Shown here piece after piece: positions 5,038 through 64,000 of a DNA stretch of 64,000 nt. Source of the stretch: Akkermansiaceae bacterium (GTDB taxonomy: Bacteria > Verrucomicrobiota > Verrucomicrobiia > Verrucomicrobiales > Akkermansiaceae); the NCBI GenBank assembly GCA_903906515.1, contig CAIVKO010000044.1, positions 1 to 64,000 on the forward strand, in the 5' to 3' direction. Position 1 is the stretch's first letter. Each line of letters opens with the position of its first letter. The notes beneath the pieces were generated by a model that saw only the letters and a list, made by a program, of their open reading frames with translations, did no database searches and was not told the DNA's origin. A program made the position numbers and the translations under genes.

Positions 5038-5364
5038 CTAACATTTATCTTTCCCGAATTCGCGGATGCGTTTGAGAAACCCGTGCTCGCTGGGTTCATC
5101 TTTCGGGGCGTCCTCATAACGGGACTTGTAATAATGGGCGACGAGGTCATCGAAGTGATCGTCGCAGAATTGGGAATATTTGAGGTGTCGGTGAAAATCC
5201 ATCAAGGTCTGTCCTTCCAATCGGTGATGGCCATGGGTTTCGCACATGCGGAGAAACTCGAGGAAATATTCGGGCTGTTTGTCGCGCTCGGCCCTCACGC
5301 GGGAGGCCTTTTTCGGCGCCCATTGCCACGGAATGTGTCGCTTACGGAGAATAAAGCTCATCAT
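5038..5364 (-). CDS. hypothetical protein
   Basis: ORF 5038..5535 with a likely start at MMSFILRKRHIPWQW, downstream of the Gfo/Idh gene. Confidence 0.6.
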   Translation of the reverse strand: MMSFILRKRHIPWQWAPKKASRVRAERDKQPEYFLEFLRMCETHGHHRLEGQTLMDFHRHLKYSQFCDDHFDDLVAHYYKSRYEDAPKDEPSEHGFLKRIREFGKDKC

Positions 5365-5422
5365 CGAACCTAACAATCCAAGACCCGGAATGGCCGACCG
5401 GCAACACCATGCGTTAGGGGCA

Positions 5423-6907
5423 TCAGCCGATTTCAGGCACCTCGTATCCTTTGCGGAAGTTCGGCACATTGAACGCTTTGATGGCATCCGAACCTGAAAC
5501 AAGGCCGGTTTTAGGGTTGATCGAGACCTTGCCACCCACTGAACAAGTCACCTTGGCAAAGTCGATATTCCAGTCGTGGAGTTGCTTGTGCTGGCGTGCG
5601 ATCACATCGGCAAATATCTCGGTTTGTGGTATGGCGGATGGGATTTTCGCGAGCGGAATCTGCTCGCCTGTGCGCAGCGAGATGTTGGCATAGTGTGCCA
5701 GCGCGGCTGATTTGTGAGCCGATGAAATCGGTGCGGTGAGATCCTGGCTACGCCTTGAGCGAACCGCGTCGATGAAGTTTTGCATGTGATGTCCACCCGC
5801 ATCGCCGGGAAACTTGGCCACCTTCGTCACGCCATCAGGCCCGAGGACATAGCCGCCGCCGCGACCGCCGCGGAACTCGCCTTTTTCACCCGTAACGATA
5901 ATGGCTACACGGATGCCCTTATAGACCGCATCGACGTTGCGCGTTGGCGTCATCCACATGTTGTTGACCTCGAAAGTACACGGAATGCCATTGAGTGAAA
6001 ACGCAGCGGTCTGCATGTTCGCGGTGTTTCCTCCATCATCCCAACCGAAACGACCCCCAAAACTGTACATCTCGGATGGCAGTTCGGGATCTCCGGAAAA
6101 CCAGGCCAAGAGATCGAGTTCGTGCGGACCTTGGTTGCCAATGTCACCATTGCCGGTGTTGTAGTCCCAGTGCCAGTCGTAGTGCAAATGCGGACGGTAG
6201 ATCGGTTTGTCCTGCGCCGGGCCAAGCCACAGGTCATAATCCAATGTGGCCGGTGGCGTGATCGGTTTATCGACTTTACCAATGGACGAACGATTGCGGA
6301 AGCATGTGCCATACATCGCCGTAATCTTGCCGATGTTGCCTTCCTTGATGTATTGCAAGGCAGGGATCAATCCGGTGTCGGAGCGGTTCTGAGTGCCGGC
6401 TTGAACAATACGACCGTAGCGCTGGACCGCGGCTGCCATTTGCCGACCTGACCATGCGTCGCCGGAGACCGGTTTTTCCACATAGACATCCTTGCCGGCC
6501 TGGCAGGCGTGGATCATGTGCAGGGCGTGCCAGAAGTTCGGGCTGGCAATGATCACCGCATCGATATCCTTGCGCTCCAGCAACTTGCGGTAATCCCGAA
6601 TCTGATCGACCGTGCCACCCAGCTTTTTCGCCATCCTGGCCATGTGGTCGGTGTCGGGATCACACACTGCCACTATCCTGGCGTTTTTCGTGTGCTGCAG
6701 TTGCATTGACAGGCTGGTGCCGCGTTCACCGCATCCGATCAAACCGACCCGCACCTGCTCGTTGGCTCCCATCACATCTTGAGCCCGCAATACGGCCGCT
6801 GATGCCACAAAACCGCCGACCGTCTGCAAAAAACGGCGACGGTTCACCAATCGGAAGGAGGAATTTTCCATGCTGCGGTTACACATAGTCGACTGAATAT
6901 CTTTCAT
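5423..6907 (-). CDS. Gfo/Idh/MocA family oxidoreductase, Tat-type leader
   Basis: VRVGLIGCGERGTSLSMQLQ Rossmann motif; YVEKPVSGDAWSGRQM; leader RRRFLQTVGGFVASAAVL. Confidence 0.92.
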   Translation of the reverse strand: MKDIQSTMCNRSMENSSFRLVNRRRFLQTVGGFVASAAVLRAQDVMGANEQVRVGLIGCGERGTSLSMQLQHTKNARIVAVCDPDTDHMARMAKKLGGTVDQIRDYRKLLERKDIDAVIIASPNFWHALHMIHACQAGKDVYVEKPVSGDAWSGRQMAAAVQRYGRIVQAGTQNRSDTGLIPALQYIKEGNIGKITAMYGTCFRNRSSIGKVDKPITPPATLDYDLWLGPAQDKPIYRPHLHYDWHWDYNTGNGDIGNQGPHELDLLAWFSGDPELPSEMYSFGGRFGWDDGGNTANMQTAAFSLNGIPCTFEVNNMWMTPTRNVDAVYKGIRVAIIVTGEKGEFRGGRGGGYVLGPDGVTKVAKFPGDAGGHHMQNFIDAVRSRRSQDLTAPISSAHKSAALAHYANISLRTGEQIPLAKIPSAIPQTEIFADVIARQHKQLHDWNIDFAKVTCSVGGKVSINPKTGLVSGSDAIKAFNVPNFRKGYEVPEIG

Positions 6908-6949
6908 GATGAGGTGGTGGGGAAGGAGGCGAAGGGTTGGTGAACAAGG

Positions 6950-7110
6950 GCAGGGATCGTCATCTCCGAGCGGTCCGCTTAGGCAGGGACCGACCTCCGG
7001 GCGGTCCTGCGAATGGAAGACGAATGATTGAACATGTTCGGATTTTCAAGCTTTCCATGTGCGAATACATTCTCATCTCATTCTCTGGACCGCTCGGAGA
7101 TCGGTCCCTG
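6950..7110. repeat. interspersed palindromic repeat, copy A
   Basis: cagggatcgtcatctccgagcggtcc, then ggcagggaccgacctccgggcggtcc, then ggaccgctcggagatcggtccctgcc directly abutting the folK stop. Confidence 0.88.
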
Positions 7111-7111
7111 C

Positions 7112-7615
7112 CTACTTTTCCGTTAGCCGAACCAGCGGCGGTTCGTCGGAGCGGAGGTTTTTCAGCAGGTCGGCTATATCATGGGTCTGGCCGGGCAGGA
7201 TCAGTTCCGGGCGGATGTCGGCCAGCGGTTGCAGGACGAAGCGCCTCTCGCCAATGCGCGGGTGCGGCAGTGTCAGGGAGTCGTTGCCGATCGTTTCATC
7301 GCCGAGGTAGAGGAGGTCGATGTCGATCACGCGCGGTGCGTTGCGTTCGGCGGATGGTGCGCGGCCCAGTTTTTGTTCAATGGTGCGGGTGGTCTCTAAC
7401 AATTCCATCGCGGTGCCGGTGAAATCGATTTCGATGACGGTGTTGAGAAATTCGGGAGAGCCCGGCGGACAGAGCAGAGGTTCGGTCTGATAGACTGGGG
7501 CGGTGATGATCGGTTCACCGGCGTTGGCGATTTCACGCAGGCAGGCGCAGGCGGCCCGCAGGTTGGCGAGGCGGTCGCCGAGATTCGATCCTAGTGCGAT
7601 TCCGGCGCGGGACAT
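7112..7615 (-). CDS. folK: 2-amino-4-hydroxy-6-hydroxymethyldihydropteridine diphosphokinase
   Basis: ALGSNLGDRLANLRAA; RAPSAERNAPRVIDIDLLYLGD; LTLPHPRIGERRFVLQPLADI. Confidence 0.95.
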   Translation of the reverse strand: MSRAGIALGSNLGDRLANLRAACACLREIANAGEPIITAPVYQTEPLLCPPGSPEFLNTVIEIDFTGTAMELLETTRTIEQKLGRAPSAERNAPRVIDIDLLYLGDETIGNDSLTLPHPRIGERRFVLQPLADIRPELILPGQTHDIADLLKNLRSDEPPLVRLTEK

Positions 7616-55592: not shown

Positions 55593-56438
55593 CTATTTCG
55601 GAGCGGTCGTTCCGGCGGCGGGAGCTGGTGCTTCCGGAGTTTTGTCTTTCTTCGCAGCAGCTGCATCGGGAGCCGTTTTGGCGAACACGGGCATCAAGGT
55701 GAGCGGGTTGACCATCGCCTTGGGGTCCAACGGTTTGCCGGGAAGATCCTTAACGTGCTCGGCGGTGAGTTCCTCGACGGTCGTCTGACCCGTCTTGGTC
55801 CGTTTTGCAGAGATCGAGAACGCGGCTTTGGCCATGTCCACCGTCACGACATCACCCTTGGTATTGCCAAAATTGTTTCTGACATAGGTCATCACCCCGG
55901 CAAGGTCTTCGGGCTTGAGGTCGTTGGTGGCGTTCTGGCTGGGCATACCGGAGGCACCGCTGTAGATTTTACCGGTGCTCATCGGGCCGTGCAGGCCGTT
56001 GAGGACGATCATCGAGAAACGCTCGGTTTCACCCAACGCCCAAGCGGAACCAACCAGTGACGGGAAGTTGTCGCCCTGGCCCTTGCCATCCGCTTGGTGG
56101 CAAGTGATGCACTTGCTGCTCCAGACTTTCTTGCCACGCGCCATGTAGGCGTCCATCGCGGCTTTGGGTGGTGGGCCTTCGTCCGATCCGCCCGGTGGGG
56201 GAGTGCGCACGTAGCCATCGCGGAAGATTTTGTTGTAATCGAAACCTTTTCCGGCACCACCGAGGATGGCACCAGCCGACACTGCCGCCAATCCGCACGC
56301 GGCGAGCACCCAAACCGAGATGGGAGCGGAGCCGGGCTTGGCGATCGGTTTTTCGCGGCCGCATGCGGCCGCCTCACGAGCCGCGCGACGCTGGATATCG
56401 GTTCCTTCAAGTTCAGGTTTCTGATTGGGCAAGGACAT
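55593..56438 (-). CDS. membrane-anchored c-type cytochrome
   Basis: WSSKCITCHQADGKGQGDNFPSLVGS CxxCH heme site; N-terminal TM. Confidence 0.88.
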   Translation of the reverse strand: MSLPNQKPELEGTDIQRRAAREAAACGREKPIAKPGSAPISVWVLAACGLAAVSAGAILGGAGKGFDYNKIFRDGYVRTPPPGGSDEGPPPKAAMDAYMARGKKVWSSKCITCHQADGKGQGDNFPSLVGSAWALGETERFSMIVLNGLHGPMSTGKIYSGASGMPSQNATNDLKPEDLAGVMTYVRNNFGNTKGDVVTVDMAKAAFSISAKRTKTGQTTVEELTAEHVKDLPGKPLDPKAMVNPLTLMPVFAKTAPDAAAAKKDKTPEAPAPAAGTTAPK

Positions 56439-56480: not shown

Positions 56481-57176
56481 TCATTCCTCCGGCGGAGCGA
56501 AGTTGAGCGCTGCGGGAACGGGGTGGTCCTTTTTCAACGAGAGCAGATAGGAAACCAGGGCCTTGGCATCCGGTCCTGGAACCATTTCCATATTTTCACC
56601 CACATCCACAGCAAGCGCGTCCGGCGAGCGATATCCCTTGATTTCCTGCTTTTCGAACAGGAAGCGATGTGGCGGGCATTTCGAATTCCACGACTGCGGA
56701 TCATTCCGCGGGTTGTAAAGATGAGCCATCAGCCAAGCGGTCGGATTGGCGGATGACGCTTCGGCGGTTTCCACACGGCGGCCGACGTTGGACAGGTCCG
56801 GGCCGATGCGCATCAAGCCGATCTGGGCGAATTTCTCGCCATTGAAGTCAAAGGCATTGGTTTCACGGCGCGTGTCACCGCGATCCGGGTCCATTTTCAA
56901 GCCTCCCCAATCCGGGCGATAAAGATCGTTGCCGGCATAAGTGGGGCGCACCAACTGGGTGTGGCAGATGTAACAACCGTTTTCCGCATAGACCCTGGCT
57001 CCATTCACCACACGACCCGTGCGTTTTGGAAAGAAGACACCGGCAGTGACCGTCTTGGCCTCCGGATAGGCGATGGGTGCCAGATCCCGCATTTTAAAAA
57101 ACGGGATCACGATGATCGCAAGCCATGCGATGCCGAAGCTGGCGGTTAGAGCGAGAATGAATGTGCGGAAGCTCAT
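56481..57176 (-). CDS. cbb3-type oxidase subunit II-like c-type cytochrome (CcoO family)
   Basis: N-terminal TM; GARVYAENGCYICHTQLVRPTYAGNDLYRPDWG. Confidence 0.88.
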   Translation of the reverse strand: MSFRTFILALTASFGIAWLAIIVIPFFKMRDLAPIAYPEAKTVTAGVFFPKRTGRVVNGARVYAENGCYICHTQLVRPTYAGNDLYRPDWGGLKMDPDRGDTRRETNAFDFNGEKFAQIGLMRIGPDLSNVGRRVETAEASSANPTAWLMAHLYNPRNDPQSWNSKCPPHRFLFEKQEIKGYRSPDALAVDVGENMEMVPGPDAKALVSYLLSLKKDHPVPAALNFAPPEE

Positions 57177-57214: not shown

Positions 57215-58678
57215 TCAATGCGCTGCGGAATCCAGGGCGTCAGCGGCGTGCGGATTGGTGAGCAAGGTGGGATTGGGACCACGCCGACCGAGGCGCAGCC
57301 ACATCAAGGTGAGGTGGATGAAGAAGAAGAAGTTTGAAAGCAGGATCATGCACCAGGCGAAGGTGATGGCCACGGCGTATGCGGCTCCGGTTTGCGCTGC
57401 GGTCATCCATGGCAGCTCCCAGTTTTCCTGGTCGGTGCCCTGCAAATATCCACCGATGAGCGCTACGGCGGCCACGGTGATGATGCCATACACCGAGAAG
57501 AGGAAATGCCAGCGGATCAGCCTGCGGGAGAGCCATTCGCGGCGTGTCACGCGGGGCACGATGAAATAGGCCGCACCGAAGATCACAAAGCTAAAAAACC
57601 CATACATCGCGAGGATTTCAGCGCTGTATCCGGCCATTGAGAACTGGGAGGCCTTGAGGGTGGAATTGGGCAGATTGAGAAACACTCCGCAGATGACCAG
57701 AATGACGAGAGAGATCAACCCGGCGAAGGTGAAGCGCAGTGCGGGGCTCAGTGCGAGCGTCTCGCGGTTTGCCAGGATCGAACGCAGATTATTGACGGCC
57801 GCCGCGCAGGCTGGAATGAAGATCAATGCCGTGGCCGCTCCGCCGACGTATGGCAGGAAAATGGGAATCGGTGCACCCGCGAGTTTTTGCATCCCTGCCC
57901 ATGGGGCGATGATTGCCAGCGACCAAAAACCGATTTTTGCCAGTTGATTGCTGAAAATCGGCAAGCCCGTGACCTTGGGAGTGATATAATAAACGGTGCC
58001 GAGCGCAACCGGAGTGAAGAACAGGAACACCATGCCGGATTTGAACCAGGCGTTGATGCCCGCAGCCATCACCGGATGACCGGGAATGCAATGCAGCAGG
58101 ATATTGGCGGTGAGGTAAACCCACGGGAACCAGATCATCGCTGCGAGCAGATACCATTGCGAGATCATCGCTCCGCCCTCCGGACGAACCCGGAACTGAA
58201 TGAACGAACCAATCACGATGACCGCATAAGCGACCAACAGAACCGGCCATGCGAAGGGAGGAAACTCCATCCACGGCATCCCGGTGCCGAATCCGGCGAG
58301 AATGCCGACGACACCGATGGCGATTCCGATGTTCCAGAGGTGACCAGCGGTTAGAATCGAGCCGATCATGGAGCACTCCTTACCGGATAGGCGCGCCATC
58401 AGCCAGAGGATCATGGCAAAAGCCGCCTGCATTCCCCATCCGTAAACCAAGGTGTTGACGTGTGCGGCATAGACCCGTCCCAAACTCATGGTGGCACAAT
58501 CGCTCATGAAGTCCGGGTTATGGATCTTCACCGAGGAAATCAGCCCTAGCAGCATCGAAATCGCGAGCCATGCCGAGCCGCTCATCAGGAAAAACATCAC
58601 CGGATGACGCAGCGAGCGGTCGATCCCCGAGCGCGTCAGTGCGTCCTGGGCAGTGGAAATGGGAGTGTCTGAAGACAT
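57215..58678 (-). CDS. cbb3-type cytochrome oxidase subunit I-like protein (CcoN family) lacking canonical CuB/heme ligands
   Basis: LGRVYAAHVNTLVYGWGMQ; AWFKSGMVFLFFTPVALGTVYYITPKVTGLPIFS; FWSLAIIAPWAGMQKLAG; RLIRWHFLFSVYGI; collinear with CcoN but His ligands replaced. Confidence 0.85.
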   Translation of the reverse strand: MSSDTPISTAQDALTRSGIDRSLRHPVMFFLMSGSAWLAISMLLGLISSVKIHNPDFMSDCATMSLGRVYAAHVNTLVYGWGMQAAFAMILWLMARLSGKECSMIGSILTAGHLWNIGIAIGVVGILAGFGTGMPWMEFPPFAWPVLLVAYAVIVIGSFIQFRVRPEGGAMISQWYLLAAMIWFPWVYLTANILLHCIPGHPVMAAGINAWFKSGMVFLFFTPVALGTVYYITPKVTGLPIFSNQLAKIGFWSLAIIAPWAGMQKLAGAPIPIFLPYVGGAATALIFIPACAAAVNNLRSILANRETLALSPALRFTFAGLISLVILVICGVFLNLPNSTLKASQFSMAGYSAEILAMYGFFSFVIFGAAYFIVPRVTRREWLSRRLIRWHFLFSVYGIITVAAVALIGGYLQGTDQENWELPWMTAAQTGAAYAVAITFAWCMILLSNFFFFIHLTLMWLRLGRRGPNPTLLTNPHAADALDSAAH

Positions 58679-59146: not shown

Positions 59147-60460
59147 TCAGTTCGAGTGATTGGCGGATTCGAGGATGCGCGGATCGCGGCAGGGATAGAG
59201 CGAGTGCTGGCCGATGGCTCGCAGCAGGAAAAACAGGAAGGCCGAGCCGATGGTGACAAAGGCGAAAATATCCCCCCAGAAGGCACCGGGAATGGAGACT
59301 TGAATGTCACCGAAGACCGCCCGGTTGATGTTGCCGAGTGAGACACCGCGCTCCGGGATAGAAATCAGATAGTGGTCCAGCACGTGCATGCAAAGCGTGT
59401 AAACCGCGACGATCGCGAGCGTCTTCGGGTTTCTCTTGAGCCACGCCTGGAGCAGGACGACGAAGGGCACCACGAAGTGGCCGAAGACCAGGGCGATCAT
59501 GGCGATGTTCCAGTTGCCGGTGTTGCGGATGAGGAAATAGCGGGTTTCCTCGGTGATGCCCGCATACCAGATCAGGAAGAACTGCGAGAAGGAAACGTAG
59601 GCCCAGAAGATCGTGAAGGCCAGCATCAGCTTGCCCATGATGTGGAAATGCTCGGGTCCGGTGACGTGCTTGAGGTGGCCCTGGCTCTTCAGCCAGGTGC
59701 AGACGATCACGATCACCGCCATCGAGTTGAGTGCCGCTCCGGCAAACAGATAGACACCCCACATCGTTGAGAACCACGTGTAATCAAGGCCCATCATGAA
59801 ATCAAAACCGGTGAAGGTGATGGTGAGCGCGAAGATGATCAAGGTATAGGTCGAGTGGAAACGCGCCCTGAACAAACGCTTTGTGCCGGGATTCGGATCG
59901 GTGTCTTGATCGGTTGAGAGCTTGCGCAGGCCGATGATGACCAAGCTGAGACCGATGAAATAGAATGCCACCCGGCCGTACCAGAACGGAATGTTCATGA
60001 ACCAATGCTTGTTGAGCAACAGGTGGTTCACGTGATGGAGGTGTTCCTTGACGTCTCCTCCATGAGCGCCGCGGTGGACGTTCATCCACTCGTAGAGGAA
60101 ATGCTGCACATGCGGGCAGAACAACGGTAGACCGAACAAGAACATCCACGGATAGGTGGAGCCGAGGTTTTCATAGGTCCGCCGCACGGAGGTTCCCCAT
60201 CCTGAGTTCGAGACGTTGTGGAGCAGGGTCCAGAAACACCCGCCGATCGAGAGCGTTAGGAAAAAGTAAAATGCGAACAACCACGAGTAGGCATAGGTGC
60301 CTTGGATTTTCTCGGGGCCGAAAAACAGCAGATAAAGGCTGACGACGGTTCCGATGGCGGCGATGATCGCGGCGATGGTTTTCACCTTCGATACCTTTGA
60401 TGGTTCGAGGTGGTCGCCGTTGATGGCGATGTCTGCGGAGGTGACGTGGTGGTGAGCCAT
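59147..60460 (-). CDS. actF: Alternative Complex III subunit F (ActF, quinol:cytochrome c oxidoreductase membrane subunit)
   Basis: Position in the act operon; polytopic NrfD-like protein with LHNVSNSGWGTSVRRTYENL. Confidence 0.85.
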   Translation of the reverse strand: MAHHHVTSADIAINGDHLEPSKVSKVKTIAAIIAAIGTVVSLYLLFFGPEKIQGTYAYSWLFAFYFFLTLSIGGCFWTLLHNVSNSGWGTSVRRTYENLGSTYPWMFLFGLPLFCPHVQHFLYEWMNVHRGAHGGDVKEHLHHVNHLLLNKHWFMNIPFWYGRVAFYFIGLSLVIIGLRKLSTDQDTDPNPGTKRLFRARFHSTYTLIIFALTITFTGFDFMMGLDYTWFSTMWGVYLFAGAALNSMAVIVIVCTWLKSQGHLKHVTGPEHFHIMGKLMLAFTIFWAYVSFSQFFLIWYAGITEETRYFLIRNTGNWNIAMIALVFGHFVVPFVVLLQAWLKRNPKTLAIVAVYTLCMHVLDHYLISIPERGVSLGNINRAVFGDIQVSIPGAFWGDIFAFVTIGSAFLFFLLRAIGQHSLYPCRDPRILESANHSN

Positions 60461-60486: not shown

Positions 60487-61143
60487 TTACTTGGCCGGGG
60501 TGGCGGAGGCTTTGGCGGCCTGGAGGGTGTGGACGTAGGAGATGATCGCCCAGCGGTCCCTGACGGGGATGTTGTATCCGTAACCGCTCATGCGGCCCAT
60601 GCCGTTGGTGATGGTGTTGAACATGCGACCGTCCGGATAGGCACCCGGAGCGTGGGCGTTGAGCTTGGCGTTGACGTTGGTATTCACCGGCACGCCGAAC
60701 GATGCGGTGATGCCCTCGCCATTACCGGATGGTCCGTGGCAGACGGCGCAATAGATGTTAAAACGCTCTTGGCCACGGCGGATCAGCTCGCCAGCCGACT
60801 CTTCGGTGAGATTGAGTTCCTCCGGCATTCCATTGCCATAATAATCGCCCATCTGGCCGGTGTAATAATAACCGGTTTGGCCGCCGAATTCATACTCGGG
60901 GATGCCGCCGATGATTTTTTCACCCTGCGGATTGAACCCGCGCGGTTGAGTCTGGGTAATGGGAAGACGCGAGCCATGACCATCCGCGAAAAACGAATCG
61001 GGTTTCTGGGCGCGGACTTTGTCCTGCTCGTCCATATCCGGGAAAATCCGTACGGGCGGCTTGGCAAACTTCTGGCCGCGGAATCCGAAGATCCCGACGA
61101 CGATCAGTGCGATCATTAGGTAAGCTAGGAAAAAGTAGCGCAT
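60487..61143 (-). CDS. actE: Alternative Complex III cytochrome c subunit (ActE)
   Basis: RGQERFNIYCAVCHGPSGNGEG; GYGYNIPVRDRWAIISYVHTLQAA. Confidence 0.88.
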   Translation of the reverse strand: MRYFFLAYLMIALIVVGIFGFRGQKFAKPPVRIFPDMDEQDKVRAQKPDSFFADGHGSRLPITQTQPRGFNPQGEKIIGGIPEYEFGGQTGYYYTGQMGDYYGNGMPEELNLTEESAGELIRRGQERFNIYCAVCHGPSGNGEGITASFGVPVNTNVNAKLNAHAPGAYPDGRMFNTITNGMGRMSGYGYNIPVRDRWAIISYVHTLQAAKASATPAK

Positions 61144-61197: not shown

Positions 61198-61752
61198 TCA
61201 GTCTTCCTCTTCGACGAGTTCGATGTTTTTTCCGCCGATCTCGGCAAGCAGGTCGCGGGTTTGATTGGGGCTGAACTGGGGATCGCGGGCTTCGATGGCG
61301 ATGAAGAATCCGTCATCGGTGGCACGGTGAAATTGCTTGCTCGCGAAGAGCGGGTGGTTCAGGCGCGGAAGTTGGATCAGTGCCAGAAGACCGAACAGCA
61401 CGGTGAAACCGGAAAACAACACCGTCAGCTCGAACATGATCGGGAAGTAGGCCGGAATAGTGAAGATGTTGGTCGGCTTTGCCTGCACGATCGTCGGATA
61501 GATGATGACCTGGGTGGAGTAAGCCAGGGAGAAAGCGGTGGCCGTGCCGGTCATGCCGCCGAAGAAGACGAACCATGGCAGGATCGAGCGCTTCATGCCC
61601 ATGGCTCCATCCAGTCCGTGGATCGGATAGGGCGAATAGCAGTCCCATTTCTTGAAGCCGGCGTCACGAACCTTCTCCGCAGCCTTGTAAAGCTGGGAGG
61701 CGTTCTTGAACTCGGCAAGGTAGCCGTAAACGCGTTTGCGGGTGGTGCTCAC
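61198..61752 (-). CDS. actD: Alternative Complex III subunit D (ActD, DUF3341)
   Basis: YGYLAEFKNASQLYKAAEKVRDAGFKKWDCYSPYPIHGLDGAMGMKRSILPWFVFFGG. Confidence 0.92.
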   Translation of the reverse strand: MSTTRKRVYGYLAEFKNASQLYKAAEKVRDAGFKKWDCYSPYPIHGLDGAMGMKRSILPWFVFFGGMTGTATAFSLAYSTQVIIYPTIVQAKPTNIFTIPAYFPIMFELTVLFSGFTVLFGLLALIQLPRLNHPLFASKQFHRATDDGFFIAIEARDPQFSPNQTRDLLAEIGGKNIELVEEED

Positions 61753-61788: not shown

Positions 61789-63261
61789 TTATTTTCCGGC
61801 CAGCTCATGCTGATAGGCGGCTTCGACGATGGTGCCGGGGTCCGGATGTTCGAGATGGTCGTCATGGTGTGGATCGGACTCGCGCATCGCCCATTTGACT
61901 TCGGCGATGTTGATGCATGGCAGGAAGCGGAGGAAGAGCATGAACAATGCGAGGAAGAGTCCGATGGTGCCGATGAAAAGTAACTGGTCCTGCGGCGATG
62001 GTGAGAAGGTTTTCCAATCGCCCGGCAGCCACATGCGGGCCAGCGTGGTGACGATGATGACGAACCGCTCGAACCACATGCCGACGTTGACGAACATCGC
62101 CACGATCATGACCACCCAGAGGTTTTCACGGCAGGAACGCCACCAGAAGACCTGCGGAGAAATGACGTTGCACGTCATCATCGCGAGGTAGGCCCACCAG
62201 TAGGGACCGGCAATGCGGAACTTGAAGGCGTCCATTTCATAGATCGCACCTGAGTAGAACGCGACGAACAACTCCATCAGATAGGCATAACCGACGATCG
62301 TGCCGGTGAGCAGGATGATCTTGGCCATGTTGTCGATGTGCTTCATCGTGATCAGGTCCTGAAGTCCGTAAATAAAGCGGGCGGGCACCATGATCGTGAG
62401 CACCATGGCGAATCCGCCGAAGATGGCGCCGGCCACGAAGTAGGGTGGGAAGATCGTGGTGTGCCAACCGGGGACCACGGAGGTGGCGAAGTCGAAGGAA
62501 ACCACCGAGTGCACCGAGAGCACCAGCGGAGTGGAGAGCGCGGCTAACAGGAGATACGCCATTTCGTAGTGGCTCCACTGGCGGTTGCCACCGCGCCAAC
62601 CGAGAGAGAAAATCCCGTAGAGGATGCGGCGCAGGCCGGGCTTGCAGCGGTCGCGGATGGTGGCGAGGTCCGGAACCATGCCGAGATACCAGAAGATCAG
62701 CGAGATCGTGAAATAGGTCGAAACCGCGAACACGTCCCACAGCAGCGGGGATTTGAAGTTCTGCCAGATCGCATTGGCATTCGGCACCGGGGCCAGGAAC
62801 CAAGCGAACCACACGCGGCCGACGTGGAAAGCCGGGAAAATGCCGGCGCACATCACGGCGAAGATCGTCATGGCCTCGGCGGCGCGGTTGATCGAGGTCC
62901 GCCAGTTTTGCCGGGTTAGGAAGAGAATCGCGGAAATCAGGGTTCCGGCGTGGCCGATACCGATCCAGAACACGAAGTTGACGATCGGCCATCCCCACAT
63001 GACGCGGTTGGTGTTACCCCAGATGCCGACGCCGGTGGAAACGAGGTGGGTCAATCCTCCGCCCACGCCGATCAGCGCGATCAGTGCGGATGGGATGAAC
63101 AACAGCCACCAGATGAACGGTTGGCGGTTTTCAAGTACTCCGCAAATGCGGTCGGTAATCCAGTGATAGGAACGTCCGGAGAGGATAAGCTTTTCGCGCT
63201 CAAGCACAGGGAGTTTGACTCCTGTGTGGGGCTCATGCGCGGTGTGGGTGGTGGTAGCCAT
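61789..63261 (-). CDS. actC: Alternative Complex III subunit C (ActC, NrfD/PsrC family)
   Basis: [56 protein letters not shown]. Confidence 0.93.
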
Positions 63262-63425: not shown

Positions 63426-64000
63426 TCAGACCATGTGAATGGTGGCCTTGCCGATGAATTTGTGGTCCGGCATGTCGGGGTTCGGGTTCTTGACGCGGGC
63501 CAGATAGCCGGTGCGCGGGCGGGTGCCGATGTAGTTGAGCAGACTGTAGTTGCGCTCGAGGTTTCTGGCGCGGCCGTGTGCGGATTTCTCTTCGTCGAGA
63601 CGGTTGCCGAAGGTAATGGCGGACGCAGGGCAGGCGTCTTGGCAGGCGGTTTTCACCGAATCCACCGGGATGCGCAATGTCGCTGTGGTAACTTCCATTT
63701 CCGTGGAGAGTTTGCCGGCGACGAGAGCTTCCTGTTTCTGTCCACCCTTTTGGCGGATGACGGCATCCTTGAGACGCTGCACGCAGTAGGTGCATTTTTC
63801 CATGACGCCGCGCATGCGGACGGTGACGTTCGGATTCTTCTGGAGGTGATCCGGATCACCCACAGCCTTCACACCGAAGGGACCCCGGTTGAGGTTGTGT
63901 GGAATGAGCGGGTTGCGCTTGTTGTAATCGAAGAAATTGAAGCGACGGACCTTGTATGGGCAGTTGTTGGCGCAGTAGCGGGTACCGATGCAGCGGTTGT
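63426..64000 (-). CDS. actB: Alternative Complex III Fe-S subunit B (ActB), C-terminal part; runs off the window
   Basis: Minus-strand frame open to the window end: [25 protein letters not shown]...[13 protein letters not shown]...[14 protein letters not shown]. Confidence 0.9.

Follow-up and report, generated by a model that had tools for sequence, protein, structure and literature searches.

Alternative complex III (ACIII) is known to form supercomplexes with oxidases, in which electrons are transferred directly between c-type hemes (PMC5928083, PMC8552683). In the ACIII-aa3/caa3 supercomplexes of Flavobacterium johnsoniae and Rhodothermus marinus, ACIII is encoded beside the oxidase and physically coupled to it; their descriptions mention neither a CcoN-like nor a CcoO-like subunit. 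Non-redox accessory subunits of ACIII are known as well, namely ActG and ActH (PMC5928083), which are not described as oxidase homologs, ActG being a predicted protein with one transmembrane (TM) helix. Furthermore, a “C-type oxidase” encoded beside ACIII was noticed in Opitutaceae and methanotrophs in passages of PMC8498564 (citing Refojo 2010) and PMC6688271. The passages concerned treat it as a working enzyme; PMC8498564 lists one as an oxidase, and in genome annotations these genes are labeled cbb3-type terminal oxidases.

The window analyzed here is a stretch of 64,000 nucleotides from an Akkermansiaceae bacterium (GenBank assembly GCA_903906515.1, contig CAIVKO010000044.1). It encodes a CcoN-like protein at the same position by the act genes, which, as far as those passages describe the “C-type oxidase,” very probably belongs to the same family. 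Some members of this family are ligand-complete, whereas the window protein and its counterparts in methanotroph-like genomes have lost their ligands. The likeness to the supercomplexes of F. johnsoniae and R. marinus is that an oxidase is associated with ACIII, although here this is known from the genes, and here a ligandless CcoN/CcoO module stands between ACIII and the oxidase. Like ActG and ActH, the protein would be a non-redox accessory subunit. We think it rather probable that it is a catalytically dead subunit I (a “pseudo-oxidase”) that arose from an ACIII-adjacent CcoN-like heme-copper oxidase of Verrucomicrobiae and whose present role is that of a membrane scaffold in an enlarged ACIII. 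While the gene neighborhood is already known, no earlier report of a ligandless subunit I was found in the openly readable literature searched, so that prior notice is possible.

The ACIII gene cluster and its cytochrome partners

The genes for ActA, ActB, ActC, ActD, ActE, ActF, a one-TM protein, the CcoN-like protein, a CcoO-like protein, and a cytochrome c form a compact, contiguous cluster on the same strand (Table 1). Penta-heme ActA and the full-length ActB are encoded just beyond the window, and the last four genes are separated from one another by about 27 to 42 bases.

TABLE 1 Features of the ACIII-linked cluster, in window coordinates
Feature	Position	Strand	Remarks
Membrane-anchored mono-heme cytochrome c (CITCH)	55593..56438	(-)	Last cluster gene here; Cytochrom_C E 8.4e-12
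CcoO/FixO-like membrane-anchored mono-heme cytochrome c (CYICH)	56481..57176	(-)	FixO E 6.2e-10; axial Met position is Cys (SKCPPH)
Ligandless CcoN-like protein (pseudo-oxidase subunit I), 487 aa	57215..58678	(-)	H73 corresponds to CcoN H60, the sole kept ligand
Single-TM protein, 140 aa	58706..59128	(-)	Heme motif absent; short form of a 251-aa TM plus cytochrome c protein in relatives
ActF-position membrane subunit of ACIII	59147..60460	(-)	By position and synteny; no Pfam match
ActE, mono-heme cytochrome c of ACIII	60487..61143	(-)	Cytochrome_CBB3 match; between ActD and ActF
ActD of ACIII	61198..61752	(-)	Pfam ActD E 1e-61
ActC (NrfD-type) of ACIII	61789..63261	(-)	Pfam NrfD E 7.7e-24
ActB of ACIII, C-terminal part	63426..63998	(-)	Full protein of 1135 aa just outside the window

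The 80 best relatives in a scan of named-genome contigs all come from Verrucomicrobiota or unplaced organisms, nearly all of them Akkermansiaceae or Verrucomicrobiaceae. Their gene order is ActB-C-D-E-F-[TM]-CcoN-like-CcoO-like-cytochrome c, with an A-type CoxA at the end in 67 of the 80; in G217, CoxA is encoded downstream together with CoxC, a small subunit, and a CuA-type CoxB. The partners keep their CxxCH heme sites, as the first-pass annotation had noted for the window, in all 78 CcoO-like proteins and all 77 last cytochromes c of the relatives' loci. Most of the sister family and every ligand-complete member retain the axial Met of the CcoO-like protein, whereas every member of the window's family (the window's own protein, L004 to L006, and L083 to L137) has Cys at this position (NMPxY to CPxx), which hints at a retuned heme potential of this cytochrome. 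In many relatives (e.g., L167:10003-10758), the TM gene that precedes the CcoN-like gene encodes a TM segment plus a cytochrome c, and the short form without a heme motif found in the window occurs in others as well.

Fold and missing ligands of the CcoN-like protein

The frame of the CcoN-like gene starts with ATG and contains no internal stops. Its product matches Pfam COX1 (PF00115) with an E value of 7.9e-38 (130.9 bits against a cutoff of 34.8), and its best solved relatives in a phmmer search are all CcoN: 3mk7_A (E 4.4e-16), with which it is collinear over residues 30 to 414, and four more structures. An AlphaFold2 model built from an alignment of 54 sequences has the CcoN fold (pLDDT 87.7, pTM 0.89), and the top Foldseek matches of this model are again all CcoN (3mk7_A, TM score 0.85/0.89, rmsd 2.0 A). 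The CcoO-type mono-heme partner with its FixO domain is a further trait of C-type (cbb3) oxidases. In contrast to these likenesses, the protein scores 90 bits with the ccoN equivalog model TIGR00780, far under its cutoff of 583.

The first-pass annotation, which relied on CcoN motifs, had claimed that the ligands of CuB and of the high-spin heme and the cross-link Tyr are lost and that the first low-spin His is retained. A computed alignment (phmmer against 3mk7_A and a multiple alignment) bears out both parts, and the motif pairings were right. In Pseudomonas stutzeri CcoN numbering, H60 is the only ligand left, and the replacements are H207 to Ser, Y251 to Ala, H257 to Gln, H258 to Lys, H345 to Ala, and H347 to Ile; E323 is replaced by Cys and is missing in the ligand-complete relatives as well. 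In 3mk7, H207, H257, and H258 are the CuB ligands, Y251 is the cross-link residue, H345 is the heme b3 ligand, and H60 and H347 are the ligands of the low-spin heme b. Because H347, the second axial ligand of this heme, is replaced, only one heme-iron ligand is left in the window protein.

The three ligand-bearing helices TM6, TM7, and TM10 (residues 202 to 237, 244 to 266, and 348 to 378) contain no His at all, whereas the same helices contain on average 1.0, 2.3, and 3.2 His residues in the ligand-complete sequences. Thus, the loss does not hinge on details of the alignment, and misalignment can be rejected as its cause; likewise, neither a His triad nor a proximal His is present in the AlphaFold2 model. 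The active-site ligands are gone in all of the 80 best relatives, and the loss is therefore not due to chance. A NO reductase or another catalytic heme-copper variant is rejected as well, since the CuB His residues are all missing. Positions of the former pocket are now bulkier in the window's family (G211 is Phe, Leu, or Tyr in 54 of 62 members, and H345 is Phe, Tyr, Leu, or Met in 61 of 62), as expected for an emptied heme cavity.

As judged by homology and by its 12-TM COX1 fold, the 487-aa protein is a member of the heme-copper oxidase superfamily by descent, yet it lacks the defining features of the enzyme (three CuB His, the proximal high-spin His, and two low-spin His) and those of the cbb3 family (Tyr251 and Glu323). 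What the ligandless proteins have kept is the fold and the place in the act cluster; what they have lost is the CuB site together with the cross-link Tyr, the ligand of the high-spin heme, and one or both of those of the low-spin heme. The protein probably does not reduce oxygen.

Distribution, selection, and history of the family

Among 243 scanned genomes of the phylum, 75 gave matches, canonical CcoN and CcoNO proteins included, and the ACIII-linked CcoN-like family was confined to one class, taken as Verrucomicrobiae from the names of relatives. A ligand-complete version (HHYHHHH) exists in 18 genomes, with its act synteny unchanged in every case for which a longer stretch was at hand. In two of these genomes that are 98 to 99% complete (G001 and G147), it is the only COX1 protein, and no CydA was found in either, which suggests that the ancestral form of the family was a working oxidase. 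Glu323, a conserved residue of authentic cbb3 oxidases, is absent from the ligand-complete members (L014 to L033), and L014, the one scanned, scores 225 bits with TIGR00780, again under the cutoff; these members may represent a separate oxidase subfamily.

A maximum-likelihood tree computed without the ligand columns places all family members, including the ligand-complete ones, in a single Verrucomicrobiae clade (100/100). It implies at least three changes of ligand state: in the large clade of the window protein, in a clade of 11, and in L031, which is nested among ligand-complete sequences. A constraint that groups all ligandless sequences was rejected (approximately unbiased [AU] test, P = 0.0185), and a single loss event is thus disfavored, with long branches, L046 foremost, as a caveat. 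We interpret the changes as losses, given that the outgroups and the nested members have complete ligand sets and that a regain of six specific residues is implausible. Ligand loss is family-wide and probably occurred more than once. Two proteins that keep only H60 and H347 (L013 and L017, from G013 and G168) plausibly represent an intermediate state. In an Opitutales-type clade and in methanotroph-like genomes, H60 is mostly missing too, and the gene is nonetheless kept.

Close pairs of ligandless genes from the window's order have dN/dS values of 0.03 to 0.18; two pairs in the faster-evolving Opitutales-type clade gave 0.24 and 0.35. The low values and the intact frames lead us to reject a pseudogene for the window's clade. 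The earlier suggestion that the protein is an ACIII partner, a scaffold, or an electron-transfer element derived from an oxidase, rather than an O2 reductase, fits the ligand loss and its conservation among homologs, the purifying selection, the conserved act synteny, and an origin within a clade in which ligand-complete members persist.

All 44 genomes with a ligandless form that were examined have at least one other strongly matching COX1 protein. The genome of the window encodes a canonical CcoNO fusion with all ligands as well as cytochrome bd, so that the second, catalytic oxidase for which the first-pass annotation advised a search does exist. No COX1 besides the ligandless form and CcoNO was found in this genome, which is 96% complete, so that an aa3 oxidase could be missed; four close relatives (L095, L096, L097, and L102) likewise have the ligandless form and CcoNO only. 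Because the module is kept in these genomes lacking CoxA, it follows ACIII and not aa3, and a dependence on the neighboring aa3 oxidase is rejected.

Four genomes (G042, G054, G072, and G153) with three or four pmoA genes each encode ACIII-adjacent CcoN-like proteins with SESSHFV at the seven ligand positions, and no second CcoN-like protein was found in them. The other COX1 proteins of G042, judged by motifs, are two of A type, two of B type, and one NorB-like. This set matches the oxidases published for verrucomicrobial methanotrophs, which comprise cbb3, aa3, and ba3 and, in SolV and Phi, another ba3 (PMC8498564). In G072, actF and the CcoN-like gene are separated by a gene for NosZ, the Sec-dependent N2O reductase (TIGR04246, 957 bits; L177:10551-12533), an arrangement that agrees with M. 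caldifontis IT6, whose ACIII genes enclose a nos cluster (PMC11102522). All four are very probably Methylacidiphilum, which we regard as a strong inference. High oxygen affinity has been ascribed to the “cbb3 oxidase” encoded beside ACIII in these methanotrophs (PMC6688271). If the species assignment holds, this protein is probably not an oxidase, because the residues that reduce O2 are missing. Verrucomicrobial methanotrophs would then have one terminal oxidase fewer than reported, and conclusions about high O2 affinity (PMC6688271) need revision if the protein can bind neither CuB nor heme b3.

Possible roles and other divergent subunits

From the synteny, we infer a physical association with ACIII, and we propose a role as electron hub or scaffold. 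A heme-poor or heme-free CcoN-like platform would hold the CcoO-like protein and other TM-anchored cytochromes c beside ActE and ActA. Electrons from menaquinol would leave ACIII through ActA/ActE to these anchored c hemes and would be accepted by the aa3 oxidase whose gene directly follows the cluster in most relatives or by another oxidase, such as the CcoNO-type cbb3 here. The known ACIII-oxidase supercomplexes make such a path plausible. The fuller version of this proposal, in which a subunit I emptied of its cofactors, probably repeatedly, was kept as a structural and possibly ion-conducting ACIII subunit in a widespread module that links ACIII via c-type hemes to other oxidases, has in our estimate about an even chance of being correct. 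An oxidase core would then seem to have been converted, probably repeatedly, into a noncatalytic part of another respiratory complex. Since ligand-complete, intermediate (L013 and L017), and ligandless members are extant, the function of subunit I without cofactors can be tested.

Some redox function may have survived if one low-spin heme b is still bound by H73 and a noncanonical ligand, allowing electron transfer across or within the membrane. H73, H391, and H455 are invariant in all 62 members of the window's family, and both low-spin ligands persist in G013 and G168, but the position of H347 is Ile, Val, or Met in 62 of 62, TM10 of the window protein offers no His, and the gene has outlived H60 in most of the Opitutales-type clade and the methanotroph-like genomes; we consider this reading unlikely. 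Slightly less likely still is a cofactor-free ion-conducting or coupling subunit, in which inherited proton-path residues would serve ACIII. Y223, Y224, K228, and H384 (CcoN numbering) are kept, and most of the window's family has a conserved Gln-Lys pair in place of the two CuB His; against this, Y317, which we take to be a K-channel residue, is replaced in that family, and the Lys is kept in only 13 of 30 members of the sister family. That proton translocation by ACIII itself is reported as debated (PMC8498564) leaves some room for such a subunit.

The position of the gene between act and cox genes would also suit an assembly or maturation factor for the neighboring oxidase or for ACIII that stays outside the final complex, and such a role, like a proton or ion path, would be expected to leave traces largely similar to those of a scaffold. 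However, the CcoO-like heme partner is always kept with it and the gene persists without aa3, and no oxidase assembly factor is known to be a subunit I homolog, all of which makes this improbable. A decaying pseudogene on its way to loss might be suspected from the missing ligands and from the neighboring TM gene, which no longer has a cytochrome domain in the window's clade, but open frames throughout, the low dN/dS in the window's order, and synteny conserved across a bacterial class render it very improbable. The scaffold of an enlarged ACIII remains our preferred reading.

A few other unusual subunits were seen in the phylum. L164:3946-5379 and L165:3866-5359 encode a different, very weakly COX1-like protein that matches no NCBIfam model, and a stronger COX1 is encoded shortly downstream of it; in L164, a CuA-type COX2 gene lies between the two, and SCO-like and cytochrome b/ferredoxin-like genes follow downstream. 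The weak protein is possibly a second example of a paired, partly degenerate subunit I. L166:3947-5281 encodes a divergent COX1-like protein, followed (5146-7125) by a multi-TM domain fused to a CcoO-like domain and one more cytochrome c domain. Other lineages within the phylum (L047 to L052) have a ligand-complete CcoN-like/CcoO-like pair behind a protein of 584 to 606 aa that matches the ActE query and is possibly a fused multidomain cytochrome.
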